A stretch of 13,481 bases of DNA from an uncultured Coriobacteriaceae bacterium (GTDB taxonomy: Bacteria > Actinomycetota > Coriobacteriia > Coriobacteriales > QAMH01). The stretch covers positions 1 through 13,481 of the forward strand of contig CACZQA010000006.1 of assembly GCA_902783175.1 (NCBI GenBank), read 5' to 3'. The notes beneath the pieces were generated by a model that ran no database searches, was not told the DNA's origin, and saw only the letters and a list, made by a program, of their open reading frames with translations. Every line of letters starts with the position of its first letter. The first letter of the stretch is position 1. The position numbers and the translations under genes are program-made. Positions 3-11,225 of the stretch are shown one piece after another.

Positions 3-629
3 CTGCCCGAGGATTTTGCGGGATCGAAGCTGCAGGTCCTCGCGGAGCTCTCGAAACTGCGCGAGCTGTGCTGCGACCCGAGCCTGCTCTACGGCAACTA
101 CACGGGCGGCTCCGCCAAGCTCGACACCTGCATGGAGCTTATCTCGACTGCGCTCGAGGCAGACCACTCGGTTCTCCTGTTTTCGCAGTTCACGAGCATG
201 CTCGACCTCATCGCAGCGCGCCTCGACAGCGATGGCGTGGCCTACCAGATGCTCACGGGCTCGACGAGCAAGGAAGAGCGCATGCGGCTCGTCAAGCGCT
301 TCCAGGAATGCGCGGTGCCGGTCTTCCTCATCTCGCTCAAGGCCGGCGGCGTGGGCCTCAACCTCACGGCCGCCGACATCGTCATCCACTACGACCCCTG
401 GTGGAACGTCGCGGCGGAAAACCAGGCGACCGACCGTGCACACCGCATCGGGCAGACGCGCACGGTCACCGTCTTCAAGCTCATCGTCAAGGACACGATC
501 GAAGAGGGCATCCTGGCGCTGCAGCAGCGCAAGCGCGAGCTCGCGGATTCCGTGGTGGGCGGCGAGGCGCTCGGCTCCACGAGCATCACGCGCGACGACG
601 TGCTCGCGCTGCTCGACGCGGGTCGTTAG
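3..629 (+). CDS. SNF2-family DEAD/DEAH helicase, C-terminal part (5' end outside window)
   Basis: The frame is open from the first complete codon at position 3 and ends in TAG, giving the last 208 residues of a larger protein. It is the second RecA-like lobe of a Swi2/Snf2 ATPase: LLFSQFTSMLDLI (residues 58-70 of the visible part), LISLKAGGVGLNLT (109-122, motif V), YDPWWN (130-135) and QATDRAHRIGQTR (141-153, motif VI with the arginine finger). The ending, an EEGI...QQRK helix followed by a short acidic tail, is usual for bacterial members of 900-1100 residues. Such proteins are ATP-driven DNA translocases that remodel nucleic acid-protein complexes; the specific role in bacteria is mostly unknown. 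The N-terminal lobe, any zinc-binding SWIM domain and the start are outside the window. It converges on the acyl carrier protein gene, with only 25 bp between the two stops. The family is certain; the biological job is not. Confidence 0.93.
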   Translation: MPEDFAGSKLQVLAELSKLRELCCDPSLLYGNYTGGSAKLDTCMELISTALEADHSVLLFSQFTSMLDLIAARLDSDGVAYQMLTGSTSKEERMRLVKRFQECAVPVFLISLKAGGVGLNLTAADIVIHYDPWWNVAAENQATDRAHRIGQTRTVTVFKLIVKDTIEEGILALQQRKRELADSVVGGEALGSTSITRDDVLALLDAGR

Positions 630-654: not shown

Positions 655-912
655 CTAGCTCGTGCGGTATTTGAGGATTGCGTCGGCCAGCTCGGAGAGC
701 GTGTGGATGTCGTTCCACACGCCGTCGGGGACCTTCGAGCCGTATTCGGCCTCGAGGGTGGTGAGCACGTAGATGAAACCGAGCGAGTCGACGCCGCCCT
801 CCAAGTCGAGCGGCGTGTCGGGGCCGATCTGCTCGGGGTGCTCGGGCTCGGTCTCGACCTGCTCTGCGATGATCTGCTTTGCGCGCGCCATTATCTGCTC
901 TTTCTCGGGCAT
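655..912 (-). CDS. stand-alone acyl carrier protein
   Basis: An 85-residue acidic protein that starts MPEKEQIM. The start is set by a perfect AAGGAGG 7 bases upstream; that Shine-Dalgarno lies inside the 3' end of the ligase gene, which this gene overlaps by 22 bp (891-912). The phosphopantetheine attachment motif is GGVDSLGF (39-46), with Ser43 the expected 4'-phosphopantetheine site. It is followed by the usual helix II (IYVLTTLEAEYG) and helix III region. Length and acidity fit a type II ACP. The sequence departs from the near-invariant fatty acid synthase ACP (DSLD/E...EFG), so this is more likely a dedicated carrier than the housekeeping AcpP. It is the last gene of an operon with an acyl ligase and a fatty acid isomerase-like flavoprotein, so it probably carries the acyl group activated by the ligase. 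That partnership is inferred from gene order only. Confidence 0.9.
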   Translation of the reverse strand: MPEKEQIMARAKQIIAEQVETEPEHPEQIGPDTPLDLEGGVDSLGFIYVLTTLEAEYGSKVPDGVWNDIHTLSELADAILKYRTS

Positions 913-2306
913 CGCGCAACCTCCTTTGCAATCTTCCAACGTTGGATATCGCCGCCTGCCGTACGCGGCAGCGGATGCCCCAGCTCGACGACGCGCACGA
1001 TGCGAGCGTCGCGGCCTTCGGACAGGCGCATGCCGCGCAGCTTGCGCGTGAGCTCCCCGACGTTCCAACCGCGCTCCTGCCCCGTCGGCGAGAACTCGCC
1101 GCAGACGAGCACGGGCATTCCTTCGGAAACGACGACGGCAAGGTCGTCTTGGCCGAGCTCATCCCGAAGACGCTGCTCGCAGCTGGGGAGGTGCAGCTTG
1201 ATGCCCGAGTCGAGCACGACCACGTCGCGCCCTCGGCCTCTCACGTGCAAAAGCCCCGCATCGTCGATGAAGCCGACGTCTCCCGTGTGGAGCACTCCCC
1301 CCTCGAGCGCGCGGCGCGTGTCCTCGGGCCTGCCGTAGTAGCCCTGCATCTGGCAGGTCGGCGCGCTCACGAGCAGCTCCCCCGCGGCAGAGACCTCCAC
1401 CTTGCATTCGGGGCACAGCGTGAGTGCCCCAGTGTCCTCTCCCAAGGAAAGCGCCACGCCGGAGCTCGTCTCGGTGAGCCCGTAGCCGCAGTGCACCTCG
1501 AGCCCTGCGCTGCGCGCCAGCTCCACGAGCTCTGGCGGACAGGGAGCGGCGCCCGTGAGCACGAGGCGCAGCTCGGGGTTGAACAGGTGATGGCGCAGAA
1601 AGAAGCGCAGCAGCGCGGGCACGAGCGGCATGACCGTCGGGCGAAAGGTCCGGGCATCGTCGAGCAGGTGCCTCTTGCCGCGCCCCAGCGCGATGCGCGC
1701 ACCGCAGGAAAGCCCCCACAGCACCCCGCAGACAAAGCCGAACACATGCGAGAGCGGCAGCACGTCCAGCACGCAGTCGTCCTCGCCGAGCGGTAGCAGC
1801 GTCGAGCCGTTGTACGCGCTTGCCATCAAGCTGGTATCCGTCAGCGCAACCGGCTTTGCGCGAGACGTCGTCCCGCTCGTGAAGAACAGGATGCGACCGA
1901 ATTCGGGCCGCTCGATGCGCTCGTCATCGCCGCGCAAGGCTTCGCGCACCTCACCTACGGCGCACGAGGGAGGCCAGACGGCATCGGCATCGCCCGCCGC
2001 GACAAGCTCTGATGCCTCCTGCTCGGGAACATCGGCGGCGGCGAGCACCACCTGGATGCCGGCCTCCGCACACGCGAACACCTCGACGATGCATGCAAGC
2101 GAGCCATCGGCAAACACCGCCTCGCAGGCGCGCGCATCGCCTCTCAGCTCAGCTGCGCGCGCCTGCACGCGGGCGGCAAAGTCGTTCCACGTGACGCCTT
2201 CGACCCTGCCCGCCCGCTCGTGCACGAACGCCACCTGGCACCCGCGCTCGCGCGCCCCCGCCTCGACAAGCTCGGAAAAACCGGTGTACTTTCTCGGCGG
2301 ACGCAT
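891..2306 (-). CDS. AMP-forming acyl-CoA/acyl-ACP synthetase-like protein (ANL superfamily)
   Basis: A 471-residue adenylate-forming enzyme, shorter than usual (500-560). ANL core motifs in order: A3 P-loop FTSGTTSRAK (142-151), the segment LPLSHVFGF (183-191), A5 GYGLTETSS (274-282), A7 LHTGDVGFIDD (339-349) and A8 RGRGRDVVVLDSG (357-369). These activate a carboxylic acid as acyl-AMP and pass it to a thiol. The A10 motif, normally PxTxxGKxxR, reads PRTAGGDIQR (447-456), so the catalytic lysine is Asp453; Lys458 lies a few residues further on. The chosen start (MRPPRK) is 10 bp beyond the stop of the isomerase gene, with a weak AGGG upstream, suggesting translational coupling; the frame is open further upstream but would overlap that gene. 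The ligase stop overlaps the ACP gene. A fatty acyl substrate and ACP as acceptor are inferred from the neighbours; CoA is equally possible. Confidence 0.88.
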   Translation of the reverse strand: MRPPRKYTGFSELVEAGARERGCQVAFVHERAGRVEGVTWNDFAARVQARAAELRGDARACEAVFADGSLACIVEVFACAEAGIQVVLAAADVPEQEASELVAAGDADAVWPPSCAVGEVREALRGDDERIERPEFGRILFFTSGTTSRAKPVALTDTSLMASAYNGSTLLPLGEDDCVLDVLPLSHVFGFVCGVLWGLSCGARIALGRGKRHLLDDARTFRPTVMPLVPALLRFFLRHHLFNPELRLVLTGAAPCPPELVELARSAGLEVHCGYGLTETSSGVALSLGEDTGALTLCPECKVEVSAAGELLVSAPTCQMQGYYGRPEDTRRALEGGVLHTGDVGFIDDAGLLHVRGRGRDVVVLDSGIKLHLPSCEQRLRDELGQDDLAVVVSEGMPVLVCGEFSPTGQERGWNVGELTRKLRGMRLSEGRDARIVRVVELGHPLPRTAGGDIQRWKIAKEVARCPRKSR

Positions 2307-2316
2307 GGCGCATGCC

Positions 2317-3681
2317 CTACTCGGCGAAGAAGCGCTCGACCAGCTCGCGGCTGTACTCGGCCGTCTCATCCATGTCGCCGAAGCTCATGACCTCGCCGGC
2401 GTAGTACGTGTCGTACTTGCCCTGCATGGCCTCGACCTCGTCGTACCAGCCCGCCGCGTAATCGTCGGTGAGCACGTGCGGGAAGTAGTACCACTTGCCC
2501 TCGTCGATGACCTTCTCGGCCGGGTTGCCCATGACGGCAAGGTCGTCGAGTACCTGCTTCTTGGTTTCCTCGTAGCCGAGCTCCTCGCCGCCAGCGTGCT
2601 TGCGCAGCGTGTAGGTCACGTACGGTTGGTCGATGGTGTCTGCCCAGCGACGGTAGTAGACCATCAGATGTCCAAGGCGCTCGGGCACCATGTTCTCCAT
2701 GATGTAGTACGAGATCTCCGGCGCATCCTCGGGCTTGGTGAGGAAGGCCTGCGTGTCGTAGCGCTCGAACTCGATCTTGTCGAAATGCGCCTTCTCATCG
2801 TCGCGGATGTCGGCGTACTGGCCGAAGAACTGCAGCGGCGCGGTCACGATGAGCTTGTCGAACACCTCGACGCGGCCGTTGACCGTGATGGTGACCTTGC
2901 CGTCGGCGCGCGTGACGTCCGTGATGTCGGAATTGAGCAGCGCCGGGTGCTTGAGGGCGGCGTTGAGCGTCTCCCAGATGGACTGCGTGCCTTCCTTCCA
3001 GGTCCACAGGTTGACCTTGACGAAGTTCATCGTGGTCTGGAAGTCGAGGTACTTGAGCACGTATGCCGCGGGAATCTCGTCGAAGTAGCCGTAGCCGAAG
3101 CTCGTGAACGGCCCGATCCAGATCTGCTGGACCAGCGGCACGCCGTTTTTCTCGCAGAACTCCTTGAAGGGAAGCGCGAGGTCCTTGAGGTTCTCGTTCT
3201 CGCCCTCGATGTGCTCGCGCTGCGGGGTGACCGCGTCGCCGTCGTAGCGGCCCTGCGCCACGCCGCGGTGGCCGTTGACGTCATAGCCCTTGTACTTGGT
3301 GGCGAGCAGCTCGCCGAACTTCTTGACCTGGTTGCGCATCTCGCCCACGAGCTCCACGCGCGCAGGGTCGCTCGCGTCGAAGGGGTCTATGACGTTGCCT
3401 TGAAGGTCCTTGTAGTTGCGGTTGAGCTTGGGGCCGCCCTCGTGCGTCACGCCGCAGAACTCCTCGACGTCGTGGACGGCGTAGTACGAGGGAACGCCCA
3501 TGATGGCGCCCATCTCGTAGCGGCGCCCCTTGTAGTTGGGCGAGTGGCACTTGCCGCCCACCCAGCCGTTGCGCTCGAAGATGACGTAGTTCTCGAACCC
3601 GGCCTTCTCGAGGTACATGCCGGCAGAAAGACCTGCAGGGCCGCCGCCGATGATCGCGATGCGTTCGTTCTTGTCAACCAT
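2317..3681 (-). CDS. FAD-dependent polyunsaturated fatty acid isomerase-like flavoprotein
   Basis: A 454-residue flavoprotein of the amine oxidase / protoporphyrinogen oxidase fold. The start MVDKNE has GAGGAGG 5 bases upstream; the frame is open further but that part lies in the promoter region. Seen: Rossmann motif IIGGGPAG (10-17), ribose-binding Glu36, KCHSPNYKGRRYEMGAIMG (44-62) and a C-terminal FAD-contacting segment YYAGEVMSFGDMDE (426-439). From memory these blocks, with FGYG (195-198), AAYVLKYLDF (205-214) and ERLGHLMVYY (334-343), match the P. acnes polyunsaturated fatty acid isomerase (PAI, 424 residues) almost word for word. PAI moves double bonds in free linoleate by flavin hydride transfer. 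Arg88 here falls where PAI has its substrate-gating Arg88, also by memory. About 20 extra residues lie near 138-168. First gene of an operon with ligase and ACP. The family is strong; the exact substrate and product are not shown, and a related oxidase or desaturase remains possible. Confidence 0.85.
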   Translation of the reverse strand: MVDKNERIAIIGGGPAGLSAGMYLEKAGFENYVIFERNGWVGGKCHSPNYKGRRYEMGAIMGVPSYYAVHDVEEFCGVTHEGGPKLNRNYKDLQGNVIDPFDASDPARVELVGEMRNQVKKFGELLATKYKGYDVNGHRGVAQGRYDGDAVTPQREHIEGENENLKDLALPFKEFCEKNGVPLVQQIWIGPFTSFGYGYFDEIPAAYVLKYLDFQTTMNFVKVNLWTWKEGTQSIWETLNAALKHPALLNSDITDVTRADGKVTITVNGRVEVFDKLIVTAPLQFFGQYADIRDDEKAHFDKIEFERYDTQAFLTKPEDAPEISYYIMENMVPERLGHLMVYYRRWADTIDQPYVTYTLRKHAGGEELGYEETKKQVLDDLAVMGNPAEKVIDEGKWYYFPHVLTDDYAAGWYDEVEAMQGKYDTYYAGEVMSFGDMDETAEYSRELVERFFAE

Positions 3682-3718: not shown

Positions 3719-3731
3719 CTGGTAATACCAG
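3719..3731. promoter_or_regulatory. putative GntR/FadR-type operator O1
   Basis: CTGGTAATACCAG is a 13-bp palindrome, perfect apart from the central base. Its 11-bp core, read on the minus strand, is identical to the core at 3819-3829. The CTGGT-N3-ACCAG layout is like the FadR operator known from Escherichia coli (recalled) and fits GntR regulators of the FCD type. It lies 44 bp (centre) upstream of the isomerase start, where a repressor could cover the -10 or the transcription start. The divergent GntR protein is the obvious ligand, by inference. Confidence 0.7.
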
Positions 3732-3818: not shown

Positions 3819-3829
3819 TGGTATTACCA
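3819..3829. promoter_or_regulatory. putative GntR/FadR-type operator O2
   Basis: TGGTATTACCA is an 11-bp palindrome, perfect apart from the central base. It is the reverse complement of the core of the site at 3720-3730, with centres 99 bp apart. Its centre is 28 bp upstream of the gntR ATG and just downstream of the predicted start of transcription, as expected for autorepression. Two identical cores, each in front of one divergent unit, are unlikely by chance. Confidence 0.7.
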
Positions 3830-3846
3830 CATTCCAGAGGAAGTGG
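3827..3846 (+). promoter_or_regulatory. possible hairpin over the gntR ribosome binding site
   Basis: CCAC-A-TTCC (3827-3835) can pair with GGAAGTGG (3839-3846), with one bulged A and a 3-base loop. The Shine-Dalgarno AGAGGAAG (3836-3843) lies in its loop and 3' arm, 8 bases before ATG 3852. The structure could lower translation of the regulator. It is a short stem, seen by eye only. Confidence 0.3.
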
Positions 3847-3851
3847 TCTCC

Positions 3852-4556
3852 ATGGCATTCCACAAGATCAGCTCGCCTTCGCTCACCGAGATGTTCGTCG
3901 AGCAGCTCGAGGGGATGATCCTTTCCGGCGAGCTCAGGACGGGAGAGCAGCTCCCCTCCAGCCGTTCGCTGTGCGAGATGATGGGTGTGAGCCGTCCCGT
4001 CGTCACCGCGGGGCTCGCCCAGCTCGAGCAGATGGGCTTCGTCAAGATCCGCCCGCGGCGCGGCGTCTTCGTCACCGATTACCGACGCAAGGGCACCATC
4101 GAGACACTCGACGCCATCATGCGCTACAACGGCGGGCGCATGCGCAAGGAAGAGGTGCAGTCGCTGTTCGAGGTGCGCGACTCGCTCGACCGCCTGGCCG
4201 CGCGTCTCGTGGTCGAGCGCGCGACGCAAGACGACCTCGCGCGCCTGCGGCAGCTCGCCGCCGAGGCGCGCGCCACCACCACGCCCGAGCAGGAGGCGGA
4301 GGCCGCCTACGCCTTCTACCACGAGGTCACCGTAATTTCTGGCAACATGATCCTGCCGCTCGTGTACCACTCGTTCAAATCGGAGAGCGAGTACCTGTGG
4401 ACCAAGTCCGTGCGCCTGTCGCACAAGGGGCTGCTCGTCGACGACATCGAGGCGGTGCTCGGCGCGCTGCTCGAGCGCGATGCCGACGAGGCGGCACGGC
4501 AGCTCGACGCAATCTGGACCAACGCCCTCATCCACGTCGACGAGCTCGCCAACTGA
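3852..4556 (+). CDS. GntR-family transcriptional regulator, FadR/FCD type
   Basis: A 234-residue regulator. ATG 3852 is preferred over an in-frame GTG at 3843 because AGAGGAAG stands 8 bases before it. The N-terminal winged helix-turn-helix is typical GntR: LPSSRSLCEMMGVSRPVVT (34-52), then LEQMGFV and the wing RPRRGVFV (68-75). The C-terminal half (about 95-232) is the helical FCD ligand domain: FEVRDSLDRLAARL (106-119), HEVTVISGN (157-165) and SHKGLL (190-195). The metal or ligand residues look incomplete: the Asp four residues before His157 is a Tyr, and the last His position appears to be Trp222. FCD regulators usually bind carboxylates or acyl-CoA and repress neighbouring genes. Divergent to the isomerase operon, with two identical palindromic sites between, it is the likely repressor of both units. 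The effector is unknown; a fatty acid or acyl thioester is a guess. Confidence 0.92.
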   Translation: MAFHKISSPSLTEMFVEQLEGMILSGELRTGEQLPSSRSLCEMMGVSRPVVTAGLAQLEQMGFVKIRPRRGVFVTDYRRKGTIETLDAIMRYNGGRMRKEEVQSLFEVRDSLDRLAARLVVERATQDDLARLRQLAAEARATTTPEQEAEAAYAFYHEVTVISGNMILPLVYHSFKSESEYLWTKSVRLSHKGLLVDDIEAVLGALLERDADEAARQLDAIWTNALIHVDELAN

Positions 4557-4576: not shown

Positions 4577-5473
4577 ATGCAAAGCGACTACCTCATCGAA
4601 TTCGTGACCATCGCGCGCGAGGGCTCGCTCGCCCGCGCGTCGCGTGCCTTGAACAGCTCGCAGTCAACGTTGAGCCGCCACCTCAAGGCGCTGGAAAAAT
4701 CGCTCGACATGGAACTGCTCGAACGTCGTAGCGACGGCGTCGTCCTCACGGACGCCGGCACCTACGTCTTCAACCGCGCGGGCGACATGGTCGACGCGCT
4801 CGACGACATCGCGTTTTACGCACGCCACCGCAGCACGTCGCGCGTCGTGACCATCGCCGGCATGACGATATTCCCCTCCGTGATGGGACGCGTCGAGCAC
4901 CTGGCCGCCGAGCACGCCGGCAGCGTGCGCTACAAGGTGCTGCCGCCCGGCAGCTTCGCGGATGCAGAGATCGCCGAGCTGCTCGACACCAAGCAGGCAG
5001 ACGTCTACCTCACCATGAGCACCGACGAGCGGCTCGACGCGCTTGACGGCCGCTACGACATCGTCGAGGCGTTTCGCACGCCGGTGGTGGCCGTCATGCA
5101 GCGCACGCACCCGCTTGCCAAGTCGGGGACGCTCGAGCCTCACGACCTCGACGGCTGCCTGCTGCTCCACGCGCAGACGAGCTTCGATGGCGAGAGGATC
5201 AACTGGGCAGACACCCGCCGCGCCCTGCTCAAGCTCGGCGTCGACTACCGCTCCAAGACCTGCACGCTACGCGACAGCTCCGACCTCATGTCCAACCTCA
5301 AGTCCGGGATCATCCTGCTGCCCGAGGCGTACGAGGGGGTCACCATGCTGCGCAACACGGGCCGTGCGGTGATACCGGTCCACGGGATCGTCAAGCGACT
5401 CGTCGCCGTGTGCCGCACGGGAAGCGGCATGGCGGAGGTTATCTCGTCGCTCGAGCTCGGAACCCTGCCCTAG
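4577..5473 (+). CDS. LysR-family transcriptional regulator
   Basis: 298 residues, normal for the family. ATG 4577 has GGGAGG 8 bases upstream and comes 20 bp after the gntR stop, so the two are probably one transcript. The N-terminal winged helix-turn-helix is clear: YLIEFVTIAREGSLARASRA (5-24), then LNSSQSTLSRHLKALEKSL (25-43), ELLER and LTDAG (57-61). The rest is the periplasmic-binding-like effector domain, roughly residues 90-295. LysR proteins usually activate a nearby target in response to a small ligand. Here the target could be the SRPBCC gene downstream, the isomerase operon, or a distant gene; nothing in the sequence decides. Two regulators of different families in one unit next to a three-gene operon suggests that more than one signal is read. 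The effector cannot be named. Confidence 0.93.
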   Translation: MQSDYLIEFVTIAREGSLARASRALNSSQSTLSRHLKALEKSLDMELLERRSDGVVLTDAGTYVFNRAGDMVDALDDIAFYARHRSTSRVVTIAGMTIFPSVMGRVEHLAAEHAGSVRYKVLPPGSFADAEIAELLDTKQADVYLTMSTDERLDALDGRYDIVEAFRTPVVAVMQRTHPLAKSGTLEPHDLDGCLLLHAQTSFDGERINWADTRRALLKLGVDYRSKTCTLRDSSDLMSNLKSGIILLPEAYEGVTMLRNTGRAVIPVHGIVKRLVAVCRTGSGMAEVISSLELGTLP

Positions 5474-5650: not shown

Positions 5651-6691
5651 ATGGAAGTCCTGACAACCATCTTGACGGTCATCGGCATCATCTTGCTCGT
5701 CATCATCGCACTGGCGATCTGCATGCTGATCGGCGTCCACTGCTTCTACCTCTGGGGCAAGAAGTGCTACGCGACGCCCGAGGAGTGCGCGCTCGCCTAC
5801 CCCGGCGACGAGCTCATGGACCGCTTCGACCAGAGCAAGATCGAGACCGTGACGGCGGCCATCACCATCGACAAGCCGGTCGAGGACGTGTACCCGTGGA
5901 TCTACCAGTGGGGCGGCACGAAGAGCGGCTCGCTGTCGTCCGAAGTGCTCGAGCGCGTCTTGGGGCGCATGTCCATCTTCAACCGCTACGAGCTGTGCGA
6001 GGAATGGCAGATGCCCGACTCGTTCATGCCCGGCGACTTCATGGACTGGGACCGCTCCGGCATGGGCAGCGAGGCGACCGACGTCGTCGCCGACAAGTAC
6101 ATCATGTCGTTTTCCGATATGAAGCACCCGCCGCGCGCCCGCGGCGCCTACGCCATCGCCGGCGGCGACTGCGACGACATGAACTTCATCTGGGGCTGGT
6201 ACTTCGTCCCGCTCGAGGGCGGCAAGACGCGCTTTCTGTGCCACTGGAAGTACTACGGCACCCAAAGCGGCGCCACGAGGTTCGCGCTGCGCAACTCCAT
6301 CCTGAAGTGCGGCACCGCCATGCAGCGCTGGCAGATGGAGTACACGAAGAAATGCGCCGAGGGCACCATGCCCGTCCACAAGCACGTCAAGCGCTACCGC
6401 AAGATCTTCGGGCAGTACCACTACGCGCCCGATGAGGTCCAGGAGAGCTTCGATTGCCCGCAGATCCGCGACGGGCGCGAGAACCCCGCGGTCAACGAGG
6501 TGCGCCCCGCCCGCATGGCAGACCCCGCCTGGCCGCCCGCAGACGGCCCCTGGGCCATCGACCGGGAGTACTACCGCGAGCGCATTCCCCGTGCCATCGC
6601 AGAGATCGAGGAGAAGGCGGCAAAGCAGCAGCATGCGGCCGAGCTCAAGATCGCCGCGCTCAAAGAGGAGCTGGCAGCGCTCGACGAGTAG
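5651..6691 (+). CDS. membrane-anchored SRPBCC (START-like) domain protein, ligand unknown
   Basis: 346 residues. The start MEVLTTIL at 5651 gives a hydrophobic N-terminal anchor (about 3-29) and has a modest GAGG 9 bases upstream; an in-frame ATG at 5534 would add a poor 39-residue tail. The body (about 65-235) looks like the SRPBCC/Bet v1-like helix-grip fold: ITIDKPVEDVYPWIYQWG (71-88) is the usual first strand and helices, then GRMSIFNRYELCEEWQ (105-120), GDFMDWD (128-134) and a late strand KTRFLCHWKYYG (192-203). A C-terminal charged helix (305-345) may form a coiled coil. Such domains hold hydrophobic ligands in a central cavity. One anchor and a large body on one face of the membrane is the likely topology. 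It lies downstream of the lysR gene and near the fatty acid locus, so a lipid ligand is a reasonable guess, but no catalytic motif supports a specific role. Confidence 0.75.
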   Translation: MEVLTTILTVIGIILLVIIALAICMLIGVHCFYLWGKKCYATPEECALAYPGDELMDRFDQSKIETVTAAITIDKPVEDVYPWIYQWGGTKSGSLSSEVLERVLGRMSIFNRYELCEEWQMPDSFMPGDFMDWDRSGMGSEATDVVADKYIMSFSDMKHPPRARGAYAIAGGDCDDMNFIWGWYFVPLEGGKTRFLCHWKYYGTQSGATRFALRNSILKCGTAMQRWQMEYTKKCAEGTMPVHKHVKRYRKIFGQYHYAPDEVQESFDCPQIRDGRENPAVNEVRPARMADPAWPPADGPWAIDREYYRERIPRAIAEIEEKAAKQQHAAELKIAALKEELAALDE

Positions 6692-6846: not shown

Positions 6847-7704
6847 CTAGATGAGGCCCGCCTCGTAGGGACGATTGCACTGGGGGGCGCTGAGCGGGCA
6901 GTTCTTGTGGCAGAGCGGGCAGGTGCCAGACGCGCCGCTGGAAGAGCCAGAGCCCGAAGACGAGCCAGAGCCGCCGCTTGCGCCGGAGCCGTCCCCGTAC
7001 GTCCCTTGGCCCAAAGTCCCCGAAGAGACCTCATGACCGCGGCGCCTGCGCTCCCCCGTACCCGAGCCGCTGCCGGATCCGCTGCCGGATCCGCTGCCGC
7101 TGCCGGAGCCGTTCACATTCGAAGCCTGGGACCCAACCGATGCGAGCGCGTCTCCCGCAGCGCCAAAGCCCGTCGCGCCCAAGGCGACGGCCCCGACGAC
7201 CGCGACCGTGTTCACCGCAGCCCCGATGGCCTTGCGGCGCGCCGGGTTGTACGGGACCTTGAAGAGGCTCGCGACGGCAATCCAGTGCATGGCCAGGTGG
7301 ACGACGACAAGAGCGCACAGCAGGTACGAGCTCGCGACGTGGACGAGGTACCATACCTCCCCCGTGCCCGCAACGGCCAGGCTGATGCCCGCCGAGGACA
7401 GGACCTGGCTGATCATCAGGGAACTGACCACAAGAGCGATCATGGCGAGTGCGAGCAGGATGCCCATGATGGCGAGCAGCCAGCGGCGAGCCGTCATGCG
7501 CTTGCCCTTGATCGCCGCGGACGTGCCCGCTATCCACGCACGCGACAAGACGAGATGGGCGGCGATGCAGATAAAGAACACAACCCCGAGCACCTCGTGC
7601 AAAAAGTCGCCGGTCAGCTGGAAGAACATCTCCACGACGAGCAGGGCGGAAAGAATCGCATCGAACGCGATGCGGGCTTTGAACGTGTGCGGTTTCGAGC
7701 TCAC
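6847..7704 (-). CDS. DUF4405-like multi-histidine membrane protein with Gly-Ser linker and four-Cys tail
   Basis: About 285 residues. I prefer GTG 7704, which has AAGG 8 bases upstream; GTG 7722 in the same frame lacks a good site but cannot be excluded. Hydrophobic segments at about 13-32, 37-57, 77-98, 117-145 and perhaps 159-180 form a small helical membrane core. His36 (FLHEVLG), His50, His122, His136 and His140 sit in or at the ends of these helices, as in cytochrome b-like DUF4405 proteins, so heme b binding is possible. After the core comes a Gly-Ser repeat linker (199-217), an RRRR patch, a second Gly-Ser stretch (238-260) and a tail CPLCHKNCPLSAPQC (262-276), whose four cysteines could bind zinc or an iron-sulfur cluster. 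Family assignment is from the histidine and helix pattern recalled; electron transfer is inferred. Monocistronic, minus strand, between the convergent hairpin and the tRNA genes. Confidence 0.7.
   Translation of the reverse strand: MSSKPHTFKARIAFDAILSALLVVEMFFQLTGDFLHEVLGVVFFICIAAHLVLSRAWIAGTSAAIKGKRMTARRWLLAIMGILLALAMIALVVSSLMISQVLSSAGISLAVAGTGEVWYLVHVASSYLLCALVVVHLAMHWIAVASLFKVPYNPARRKAIGAAVNTVAVVGAVALGATGFGAAGDALASVGSQASNVNGSGSGSGSGSGSGSGSGTGERRRRGHEVSSGTLGQGTYGDGSGASGGSGSSSGSGSSSGASGTCPLCHKNCPLSAPQCNRPYEAGLI
6938..6981. repeat. low-complexity Gly-Ser coding stretch (second)
   Basis: Short degenerate repeats of Ser and Gly codons on the minus strand encode the second flexible segment of the membrane protein, just before its cysteine tail. 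This is low-complexity coding DNA, not a mobile or CRISPR repeat. Confidence 0.6.
7064..7110. repeat. GGATCC-rich Gly-Ser coding repeat
   Basis: Near-repeats of a 12-base unit (GCTGCCGGATCC on the plus strand) encode the run of alternating Gly-Ser residues in the linker of the membrane protein. Such runs expand and contract by slippage, so its length may differ between strains. Confidence 0.7.
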
Positions 7705-7735
7705 GAGAGGTGCCTTTCTCACGGGGAGTCTTGCT

Positions 7736-8888: not shown

Positions 8889-11225
8889 CTAGCTGCGCTT
8901 GCCTTTCTTCTTGGACTTGGGGCGGTCGTTTGCGCCGGGCATCATGCGCGTAGCGTCGAACACGCCGTCGACCGCCTTGATCGAGTTGATGATCGAGCCG
9001 ATGCGCTCGGTCTCGCCTACCTCGAACAGGAAGCGCATCTCGACGATCTCGTCTTTGTGGGTGTTCGTGGAGCTCGAGATGATGTTGACCCCGGCGTCCG
9101 CGAGCGTCATGACAATGTCCTGCAGGAGGCGCAGGCGATCAATGGCCTCGACGTAGATCTCAACCTGGTAGACGCTCGCCTCGATCTCGGACTCCCACGC
9201 GACGTCGATCATGCGCTCGGGATGCTTGAGCAGGTCGGCCGCGTTCGGGCAGTCCGCGCGGTGCACCGAGACGCCGCGCCCGCGCGTGATGAAGCCGATG
9301 ATGTCGTCGCCCGGCAGCGGATTGCAGCAGTGCGAGAGGCGGACGTACACGTCGTCGAGGCCCTTGACCACGACGCCCGTCTTGTTGTGGGCGCTGCGGC
9401 GGCTGCGCTCCTGCGGCGAGCGGGGCTTTGCCGTGATGTTCGAGCCGTTCGTCAGGTAGAGCTGGTCGATGACCGGCTTGTCGGCCTCCTCCTCGACCTC
9501 GGCTTCCTTGTTCATCGCGTGGATGATGCGATGGGCGAGCTGCTTGGCGGAGTACTTGCCCGAGCCGACGGCGACGAGCAGGTCGTCGGTGCTCTCGTAG
9601 CTGAGCTCGACGGCGACGCTTTCCAGGTACGGCAGCGCCTTGGCCGCCGCGACCCCGACGCCGTCTTTGCGCAGCTCGTGCATGACCAGGTCGCGGCCGC
9701 GTACCTGGTCGTCGTTGCGCGTGATCTTGGAGAAGTACCCGCGGATCTTCGAGCGGGCGCGCGGCGACTTGACGATGCCGAGCCAGTCGCGCGACGGCGT
9801 TGCGTTTTTCTGCGTCAGGATCTCGACGCGGTCGCCCGTCTGCAGCGTGTACGTGAGCGGCACAATCGAGCCGTTGACCTTAGCTCCGATGCAGTGGTTG
9901 CCCACCTCGGTGTGGATCGCGTAGGCAAAGTCGAGCGGCGTCGAGGACGCGCGCAGGCTGATGACCTCGCCTTTGGGCGTGAAGCAGAAGACCTCGCTCT
10001 CGAACAGGTCGACCTTGAGCGACTCCATGAACTCGTGGGGGTCGTTGGTCTCCTGCTGCCAGTCGAGCATCTCGCGCAGCCACGTGAGCTTCTGGTCGAA
10101 GTCCACTGCATCGCGCTTCTTCGAGCCGCCGCCTTCCTTGTAGCGCCAGTGCGCGGCGATGCCGTACTCGTTCATGCGGTGCATCTGCTCGGTGCGGATC
10201 TGAATCTCGAGCTGGCGCGCCGCAGGTCCCATGACCGTCGTGTGCAGCGACTGGTACATGTTGAACTTGGGCATCGCGATGTAGTCCTTGAAGCGTCCGG
10301 GAATCGGGTGCCACAGGTTGTGCACGGCCCCGAGCGAGCTGTAGCACTGGGGAATCGTGTCGACGATGATGCGCAGGCCGATCAGGTCGTAGATCTCGGA
10401 GAAGTCCTTGTCCTTCTTCGACATCTTCTGGTAGATGGAGTACAGGTGCTTGGGCCTGCCCGAGATCTTGGCATCCTGCAGCCCGACCTCGTCGAGCTCG
10501 GCGCGCAGGGCGTCCATGGCCTGGGCGAGGTACTTCTCGCGCGCCTCGCGCGTCTCGCTCACCATCTTCTGGACCTGCTGGTACTTCGCGGGCTCCAGGT
10601 AGAAAAACGACAGGTCCTCGAGCTCCCACTTGATCGAGCTCATGCCCAGGCGGTTGGCGAGCGGCGCGTAGATCTCCATCGTCTCGCGCGCCTTGAAGAT
10701 GCGCCGGTCTTCTTTGAGCGCCATGAGAGTGCGCATGTTGTGCAGACGGTCCGCCAGCTTGACGACGATGACGCGGATGTCGCGGCTCATGGCCACGAGC
10801 ATCTTGCGAAGCGTGCGAACCTGTGCCTCGCTCAAGGACTCGACCTCGATCTTGTTGATCTTCGTGACGCCGTCGACGAGCTCGGCAACCGTCGCGTTGA
10901 AGCGCTTGGTCAGGTCGTCCAAGGTGACGTCGGTGTCTTCGACCGTGTCGTGCAGAAGCGCCGCGCACAGCGTGTCGACGTCCATGTGCAACTCGGAGAG
11001 GATGATGGCAACTTCCACCGGGTGCATGATGTAGGGCTCGCCGCTCTTGCGGAACTGCCCGTTGTGCGATTTCTTGGCAAACTCGTACGCATCCGTGATC
11101 GTGCGCATCTCGTCTGGGTCCAGGTACTCGGAGACCTTGTCGAGCAAGACGTCGAAGCGATCCGACTTTTCGGGCTGGCGCACGCTCTTGTCAACGCCGG
11201 CAATATGCTGTTCCTGCGCGCTCAT
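8889..11225 (-). CDS. rel: bifunctional (p)ppGpp synthetase/hydrolase, RelA/SpoT family
   Basis: 778 residues, full length for a long RSH enzyme. ATG 11225 has GAGGAG 8 bases upstream. Domains in order: HD hydrolase (about 45-190) with intact metal ligands His54, His92-Asp93 and the EDT pair at 96-98; synthetase (about 250-365) with GRPKHLYSIYQKM, DLIGLRIIV, the bifunctional-type RFKD (311-314), MYQSLHTT and LEIQIRT; TGS (about 411-470, EVFCFTPKGE); a helical and zinc-finger-like region with HCCNPLPGDDIIG (632-644); ACT (about 687-762). All catalytic motifs of both halves are kept, so it should make and degrade the stringent response alarmone according to ribosome and nutrient state. The tail is basic (SKKKGKRS). 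It lies 117 bp downstream of the RecJ-helicase gene and 37 bp upstream of the metallo-hydrolase gene. I see no clear promoter in the 117-bp gap. Confidence 0.98.
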   Translation of the reverse strand: MSAQEQHIAGVDKSVRQPEKSDRFDVLLDKVSEYLDPDEMRTITDAYEFAKKSHNGQFRKSGEPYIMHPVEVAIILSELHMDVDTLCAALLHDTVEDTDVTLDDLTKRFNATVAELVDGVTKINKIEVESLSEAQVRTLRKMLVAMSRDIRVIVVKLADRLHNMRTLMALKEDRRIFKARETMEIYAPLANRLGMSSIKWELEDLSFFYLEPAKYQQVQKMVSETREAREKYLAQAMDALRAELDEVGLQDAKISGRPKHLYSIYQKMSKKDKDFSEIYDLIGLRIIVDTIPQCYSSLGAVHNLWHPIPGRFKDYIAMPKFNMYQSLHTTVMGPAARQLEIQIRTEQMHRMNEYGIAAHWRYKEGGGSKKRDAVDFDQKLTWLREMLDWQQETNDPHEFMESLKVDLFESEVFCFTPKGEVISLRASSTPLDFAYAIHTEVGNHCIGAKVNGSIVPLTYTLQTGDRVEILTQKNATPSRDWLGIVKSPRARSKIRGYFSKITRNDDQVRGRDLVMHELRKDGVGVAAAKALPYLESVAVELSYESTDDLLVAVGSGKYSAKQLAHRIIHAMNKEAEVEEEADKPVIDQLYLTNGSNITAKPRSPQERSRRSAHNKTGVVVKGLDDVYVRLSHCCNPLPGDDIIGFITRGRGVSVHRADCPNAADLLKHPERMIDVAWESEIEASVYQVEIYVEAIDRLRLLQDIVMTLADAGVNIISSSTNTHKDEIVEMRFLFEVGETERIGSIINSIKAVDGVFDATRMMPGANDRPKSKKKGKRS

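Follow-up and report, generated by a model that had tools for sequence, protein, structure and literature searches.

A polyunsaturated fatty acid isomerase-like gene joined to a ligase and an acyl carrier protein: a putative Coriobacteriia-type form of a gut and rumen locus for free fatty acids

The window analysed here is a stretch of 13,481 nucleotides, contig C6 of the metagenome-assembled genome (MAG) G000 of an uncultured Coriobacteriaceae bacterium. It carries three adjoining genes on the minus strand, for a FAD-dependent isomerase-like protein (ISO), an adenylate-forming (ANL) ligase (LIG) and a stand-alone acyl carrier protein (ACP). We propose that the window is a derived, Coriobacteriia-type form of a gut and rumen locus acting on polyunsaturated fatty acids in their free form. 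In this proposal, built on comparison of sequences, the isomerase would act on the free acid, Bacillota relatives would load, reduce and release the conjugated chain, and the branch to which the window belongs, clade A, would stop at the conjugated acid. As a whole we regard it as slightly better than an even prospect. The likely role of the window's gene set is to turn polyunsaturated fat from the diet into conjugated fat.

Coordinates and sequence matched exactly the operon described in the first-pass annotation, with 10 bp between ISO and LIG (2316-2307) and an overlap of 22 bp between LIG and ACP (912-891). ISO starts with an ATG downstream of GAGGAGG and carries a GGGPAG dinucleotide-binding motif. 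Pfam assigned ISO to the amino-oxidase/NAD_binding_8 families, LIG to AMP-binding and ACP to PP-binding. The likeness to the Propionibacterium acnes linoleate isomerase noted in the first pass held over the full length. Among 20 PDB sequences matched at E<=1e-3, the P. acnes polyunsaturated fatty acid isomerase (PAI, 2B9W) was the sole whole-length match and the best one (E 5.4e-141, 473.6 bits), rather than any amine oxidase or desaturase. It was aligned in two stretches, 2-139 and 165-452 of the 454 residues, and the next-best match covered the Rossmann stretch only (E 2.9e-9). PAI residues Arg88, Phe168 and Phe193, which we take to be the fatty-acid contacts, correspond to Arg, Phe and Phe in the window, and were kept in 100 of the 101 aligned rows (seven rows being re-fetched copies of others, with L001 and L082-L085 left out). 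The lone exception, L132, differs at all three positions and belongs to group C, a separate set with 45-57% identity which makes up 18 of the 36 isomerases of the window's order. These 36 were found in 395 genomes at a match of at least 370 bits; two more genomes gave fragments only. The contacts were kept in nine of ten group C isomerases, which have no ligase or ACP nearby. Judged by homology and these residues, ISO would isomerise free linoleic or linolenic acid to a conjugated acid, probably of the trans-10 type.

One genome per species was scanned for relatives of ISO, giving 139, of which the best 80, chosen by isomerase similarity alone, were analysed further. The ligase, the ACP and the recurrent genes were mapped by tblastn, and only loci with enough flank were counted (for the ligase, 600 bp or more towards the side concerned). 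Organism names were taken from record titles, mostly of MAGs. The ligase adjoins ISO in 72 of 73 such loci, and ligase and ACP are linked in 63 of 64; the exception for the adjacent ligase, L019, has its ligase elsewhere in the genome. The linkage of isomerase and ligase is far above chance, and its conservation reaches far beyond the strain, neither linkage nor gene order being confined to it. A profile test in one Oscillospiraceae-type family (250 genomes, 13 with an isomerase at E<=1e-60) covered the 13 positive and 20 of the 237 negative genomes, searched for ligase and CrtI at E<=1e-30. The ligase was present in 12/12 genomes with an isomerase of at least 78% identity, in 0/1 with an isomerase of 55% (G415) and in 0/20 negatives. 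The corresponding counts for CrtI were 12/12, always on the contig of ISO, 0/1 (G415) and 2/20, the latter two being 28% paralogues.

Two architectures were seen. The first is that of the Coriobacteriia in clade A, including the window, where the usual order is ORF6-ISO-LIG-ACP in a single direction; the open reading frame ORF6 lies upstream in 8/8 testable loci. The second is found in Bacillota and in three Coriobacteriia records (L037, L056, L080), many of these loci coming from ruminants going by their record titles. Here thioesterase-ACP-LIG is divergent from ISO, a CrtI-type FAD enzyme and an NADH:[2Fe-2S] flavin reductase. With enough flank, CrtI was present in 58/58 Bacillota-type loci, the reductase in 50/50 and the thioesterase in 50/51 (missing in L019); the partner domains were recognised in Pfam and NCBIfam as Acyl-ACP_TE, CrtI family and BenC/PaaE-like reductase. 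The Bacillota set is apparently a pathway of isomerisation, loading, reduction and release resembling rumen biohydrogenation. After isomerisation, the dedicated ligase would load the conjugated acid onto the dedicated ACP, the CrtI-family enzyme, fed by the flavin reductase, would hydrogenate the conjugated chain, and the acyl-ACP thioesterase would release the product. The first-pass suggestion that the chain is further used as a thioester stays likely for the Bacillota clusters, to which a thioesterase and two redox proteins are added. It is more likely that activation and reduction follow isomerisation only in the six-gene relatives.

The ligase, ACP and thioesterase might instead feed a special lipid or an acylated metabolite, without hydrogenation and release. 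Biosynthetic clusters often use an ANL ligase and a free-standing ACP for loading, and weak matches to the cispentacin pair AmcH/AmcB point the same way. We consider this unlikely, as the acyl-ACP thioesterase in nearly all Bacillota-type loci fits release as free acid, and no acyltransferase, ketosynthase or condensation family was seen among the annotated families. The annotation was of families in at least three loci (F10, F12, F13, F18, F20, F22-F24 and genes in one or two loci left out), and comprised the main cluster families, F7, F11 and ten more. These ten were a MatE transporter, a dehydrogenase, SWIM, an amylase, a malic enzyme, a sensor kinase, CobW, a vitamin transporter and two unmatched families; none of them points to a different fate for the acyl chain. 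F7 is an NfnA/GltD-like Fe-S flavoprotein (about 890-990 residues) beside the cluster in several lineages (L004:4025-6637, L010:4077-6689, L049:2698-5373, L124:6303-8867 and others). It occurs also at isomerase loci without a ligase, and is a possible electron source. A different unsaturated lipid, such as an isoprenoid or a plant acid, could be the substrate if the PAI-like protein had changed its specificity, and the nearest relatives of the FAD partner are indeed carotenoid desaturases and isomerases. This is improbable, since ISO closely resembles PAI and retains its fatty-acid contacts, and another partner is of the acyl-ACP thioesterase family.

The window ligase has intact motifs A3, A5, A7 and A8, and its AlphaFold model has the ANL fold (predicted local distance difference test score, pLDDT, 85.1). 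At the A10 position (948-950, minus strand) it has aspartate, as do all 9/9 distinct clade-A ligases reaching that end, while lysine is present in 57/57 Bacillota-type (B-type) ligases and also in L121 and L122. Ligases of at most 400 residues or with masked stretches were excluded from these counts and from the substitution rates below. The A10 lysine is normally needed for making the acyl-adenylate. It is described as highly conserved among the ligases that form aryl-CoA, acyl-CoA and fatty-acyl-CoA (PMC8388817), and a nonribosomal peptide synthetase adenylation domain without it did not accept its amino acid (PMC7966384). Lacking this lysine, the window protein is classed here as an ANL-fold protein and not as a proven adenylating ligase; in the clade of the window, the ligase would probably serve the ACP by some route other than canonical ATP-driven adenylation. 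The ratio of nonsynonymous to synonymous substitution rates (dN/dS) was 0.11-0.29 across the 11 pairs of clade-A ligases above 60% identity (of 21 pairs, all between ligases other than that of the window), with dN 0.144 against dS 0.503 for L002/L003, and 0.231 against 2.035, a dS in the unreliable range, for L004/L007. By these sequence measures the ligase of the window's clade is under purifying selection despite aspartate for the catalytic lysine, which presents a mechanistic puzzle. The serine pattern DS[LM] of the ACP was matched in 74 of 77 rows, copies included; of the others, L122 reads VDSMEF by eye, and L001 and L075 are truncated before the site. Two Clostridiales loci contain a second ligase-like gene, 35-36% identical to that of the window, adjoining the thioesterase and with a MatE transporter beside it (L052:3923-5254, L053:3970-5301).

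The loss of the lysine in all nine ligases, together with a linked CrtI or reductase in none of ten clade-A loci, could also mean that ligase and ACP are mere leftovers in decay, with the isomerase alone of importance. We think this hardly probable, given that the remaining motifs persist in clade-A ligases from records of more than one family, that dN is well below dS in the two pairs above, and that the ACP serine is kept.

In another order of events, the ligase would first load linoleate onto the ACP and ISO would isomerise the thioester, as the earlier annotation had also suggested. The single operon in the window would fit this, as would the linkage, which only few of the closest loci lack. 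Four observations make it very doubtful. Firstly, the arginine and phenylalanine residues taken as contacts are kept both with and without a linked ligase. Secondly, the insert of about 25 residues that ISO has where PAI has a short loop is common to group C, and is thus no adaptation to ACP docking. Thirdly, the ligases of the clade have no adenylation lysine. Finally, P. acnes PAI expressed in Lactococcus lactis converts free linoleic acid (PMC2885616). Isomerisation of a thioester is accordingly unsupported, and isomerisation of the free acid is the more likely.

Clade A formed one branch of the isomerase tree (SH-like approximate likelihood ratio test support 95), a quick tree with long branches at PAI and L132, from which the copies L115-L120 and L123 were omitted. 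No linked CrtI or reductase was found in the window or at ten clade-A loci, and no linked enoyl or diene reductase, the mark of biohydrogenation, was found in the window. Downstream of the ACP, L002 and L003 have an acyl-ACP thioesterase, which L004, L007 and L011 lack at that place. Searched genome-wide, CrtI was not found in G000, a MAG that is 83% complete. Over eight clade-A genomes, G000 among them, no match was strong, the best being a 76-residue fragment at E 2e-10; the B-type control G086 gave E 2.9e-268 in the same search. The nearest neighbour of clade A, L012, has CrtI and a divergent ligase, which for a single branch suggests, without proving it, that clade A lost the reductases. 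With no linked reductases, CrtI and thioesterase not found in the MAG and the altered ligase, the route in the window's clade would most likely end at the conjugated fatty acid.

Control of the locus is suggested by a palindrome, TGGTNNNACCA, which we take to be a FadR/GntR-type operator. It occurs twice in the window (expected 0.08; one of 200 shuffles reached two or more). Both copies lie in the interval from gntR to ISO, 99 bp apart. Relatives with an adjacent gntR were L017, L019, L021, L022 and L024, five of the 80 loci, and also L121. In the five loci, 12/12 TGGTNNNACCA sites lie at most 350 bp upstream of ISO or CrtI; the remaining 75 loci have four sites in 966 kb, none of them upstream of ISO or CrtI. 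In L121, from another Coriobacteriia genome, 2/2 sites are placed as in the five loci, and the pair of the window is repeated at equal spacing. The sites before CrtI also adjoin gntR. Sites shared by ISO and CrtI place the two enzymes in one putative regulon in gntR-bearing loci, which the GntR/FCD regulator, expected to respond to a fatty acid or an acyl thioester, would control through TGGTNNNACCA.

Several points weigh against the proposal. All enzyme activities are predicted, and what the ligase and the CrtI-type enzyme act on is deduced from gene company only. Carotenoid enzymes make up most of the named relatives that the CrtI partner has in NCBIfam and PDB, and L064, a Bacillota-type locus with 2,461 bp after ISO, has no CrtI. 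In two of the 12 profile genomes (G510, G588) ligase and isomerase are on different contigs. Ligase, ACP, thioesterase and CrtI were all absent in 10/10 group C loci, one of them only 3.5 kb long. As to the truncation of clade A, neither thioesterase nor CrtI was found in G000, which is incomplete as given above; the genome-wide search did not extend to the NADH reductase. Of the ten clade-A loci, four are on contigs no longer than 6.2 kb. The lysine persists in L121 and L122, two Coriobacteriia loci that have ORF6 and no linked CrtI, so loss of the reductase and loss of the lysine are not strictly coupled. The dN/dS pairs exclude the window ligase, and dS above 1 is unreliable. The gntR loci represent few lineages, L017/L022/L024 and L019/L021 being near-identical in the tree.

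Features of the window are collected in Table 1. The genes gntR, lysR and ORF6 all point away from ISO here, and gntR and lysR separate ISO from ORF6, which is directly upstream of ISO in other clade-A loci. ORF6, an addition to the locus in the window's clade, had no Pfam or NCBIfam match and is highly conserved, being 71-78% identical to eight of nine orthologues and 64% to that of L122; it is probably membrane-anchored and SRPBCC-like. A relative of lysR was found only in L122 (45%, beside ORF6) among 20 loci of the G-numbered genomes. An NfnA-like oxidoreductase is near ISO in 4/10 group C loci. Elsewhere in the window, 6847-7722 (minus strand) encodes a membrane protein of the cytochrome b561/DUF4405 kind, whose long Gly-Ser tail is of low complexity. 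ARAGORN called a tRNA-Arg (gcg) at 9381-9457 (plus strand), antisense within the gene 8889-11225 (RelA/SpoT-like by eye); the call is probably false.

Table 1. Positions and assignments of features in the window.
Feature	Position	Strand	Basis
ISO, PAI-type FAD-dependent polyunsaturated fatty acid isomerase, 454 aa	2317..3681	-	phmmer to 2B9W, GGGPAG motif
LIG, ANL (adenylate-forming) ligase, 471 aa, A10 lysine replaced by aspartate	891..2306	-	A10 codon 950-948
Stand-alone acyl carrier protein, 85 aa, GGVDSLGF phosphopantetheine site	655..912	-	PF00550 E 5.4e-9, Ser motif
GntR/FCD transcriptional regulator, divergent from ISO	3843..4556	+	PF00392, PF07729
Palindrome TGGTAATACCA, candidate GntR operator	3720..3730	.	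one of two TGGTNNNACCA in window
Palindrome TGGTATTACCA, candidate GntR operator	3819..3829	.	other TGGTNNNACCA of window, 99 bp from first
LysR-type regulator, flanked by gntR and ORF6; uncertain whether part of system	4583..5473	+	PF00126
ORF6, N-terminal hydrophobic segment and SRPBCC/Bet v 1-like domain	5651..6691	+	fold tentative
SNF2-type helicase gene, open at window edge, convergent with ACP gene	3-629		by eye

Concrete candidate genes can now be named for isomerisation, activation, reduction, release and control, and the genes beside the two reductases in the Bacillota relatives are candidates for the poorly known genes of fat hydrogenation in the gut. PAI-like genes have been reported in rumen MAGs, one of them correlated with trans-10,cis-12 conjugated linoleic acid (t10,c12-CLA) in milk (PMC10019597), so isomerase homologues alone are not new. 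The linkage to ligase, ACP and thioesterase was undescribed among the literature matches listed, as far as their accessible text goes and with most subscription papers outside their scope; the earlier sense that the linkage is unusual was right. According to one account it is unclear which bacteria of the rumen make trans-10 intermediates (PMC7339423). Another says that until C. acnes AP1 in 2024 there was no available rumen strain that makes t10,c12-CLA, a compound depressing milk fat (PMC11770317). Coriobacteriaceae and Olsenella correlate with the trans-10 shift (PMC9853040), and the present locus gives a genetic reason to examine Coriobacteriia in this respect. A bolder version, to which we give somewhat less than even weight, is that the six-gene cluster of the Bacillota, which are for the most part uncultured and largely from the rumen, holds the long-missing (trans-10) biohydrogenation genes, under GntR control in some and working on a private ACP, and that clade A is a truncation leaking conjugated acid, its lysine-less ligase having a new ACP chemistry. 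If true, fatty acids would be saturated outside fatty-acid synthesis and beta-oxidation, and it would be explained why Coriobacteriaceae and Olsenella track the trans-10 shift behind milk-fat depression.

The sequence of the CLA reductase of Butyrivibrio fibrisolvens was reportedly published by Fukuda in 2007; none of the best 120 matches of the CrtI-type partner was named as this enzyme. In Butyrivibrio biohydrogenation a linoleate isomerase is followed by CLA reductase, and by gene content the Bacillota cluster is alike in having an isomerase and a FAD/2Fe-2S redox pair suited to NADH reduction of a conjugated diene. It differs in the dedicated ACP, ligase and acyl-ACP thioesterase, which appear in no description found, within the accessible text, and the window differs further in having no linked reductase. 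The Butyrivibrio genomes examined by others contained no linoleate isomerase gene (PMC6249431). For biohydrogenation, NADH to rumenate was 1:1 and the reductase was membrane-associated; in 2015 the reductase was absent from KEGG, COG and Pfam although its sequence had been published (PMC4478896). The window ligase shares the AMP-binding fold and motifs A3, A5, A7 and A8 with the acyl-ACP synthetase 8HSY and with FadD13 (3R44), and its clade differs from acyl-ACP synthetases and ANL ligases by the aspartate at A10. The linoleate saturation system of Lactobacillus plantarum is likewise a multi-enzyme bacterial route, working by hydration and dehydration chemistry on free acids and, to our knowledge, using no PAI, ACP or ligase. 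Also among the closest known systems is PAI of P. (Cutibacterium) acnes, with which ISO shares full-length homology, the FAD motif and the contact residues, and from which it differs by the insert and by its linkage to a ligase and an ACP.

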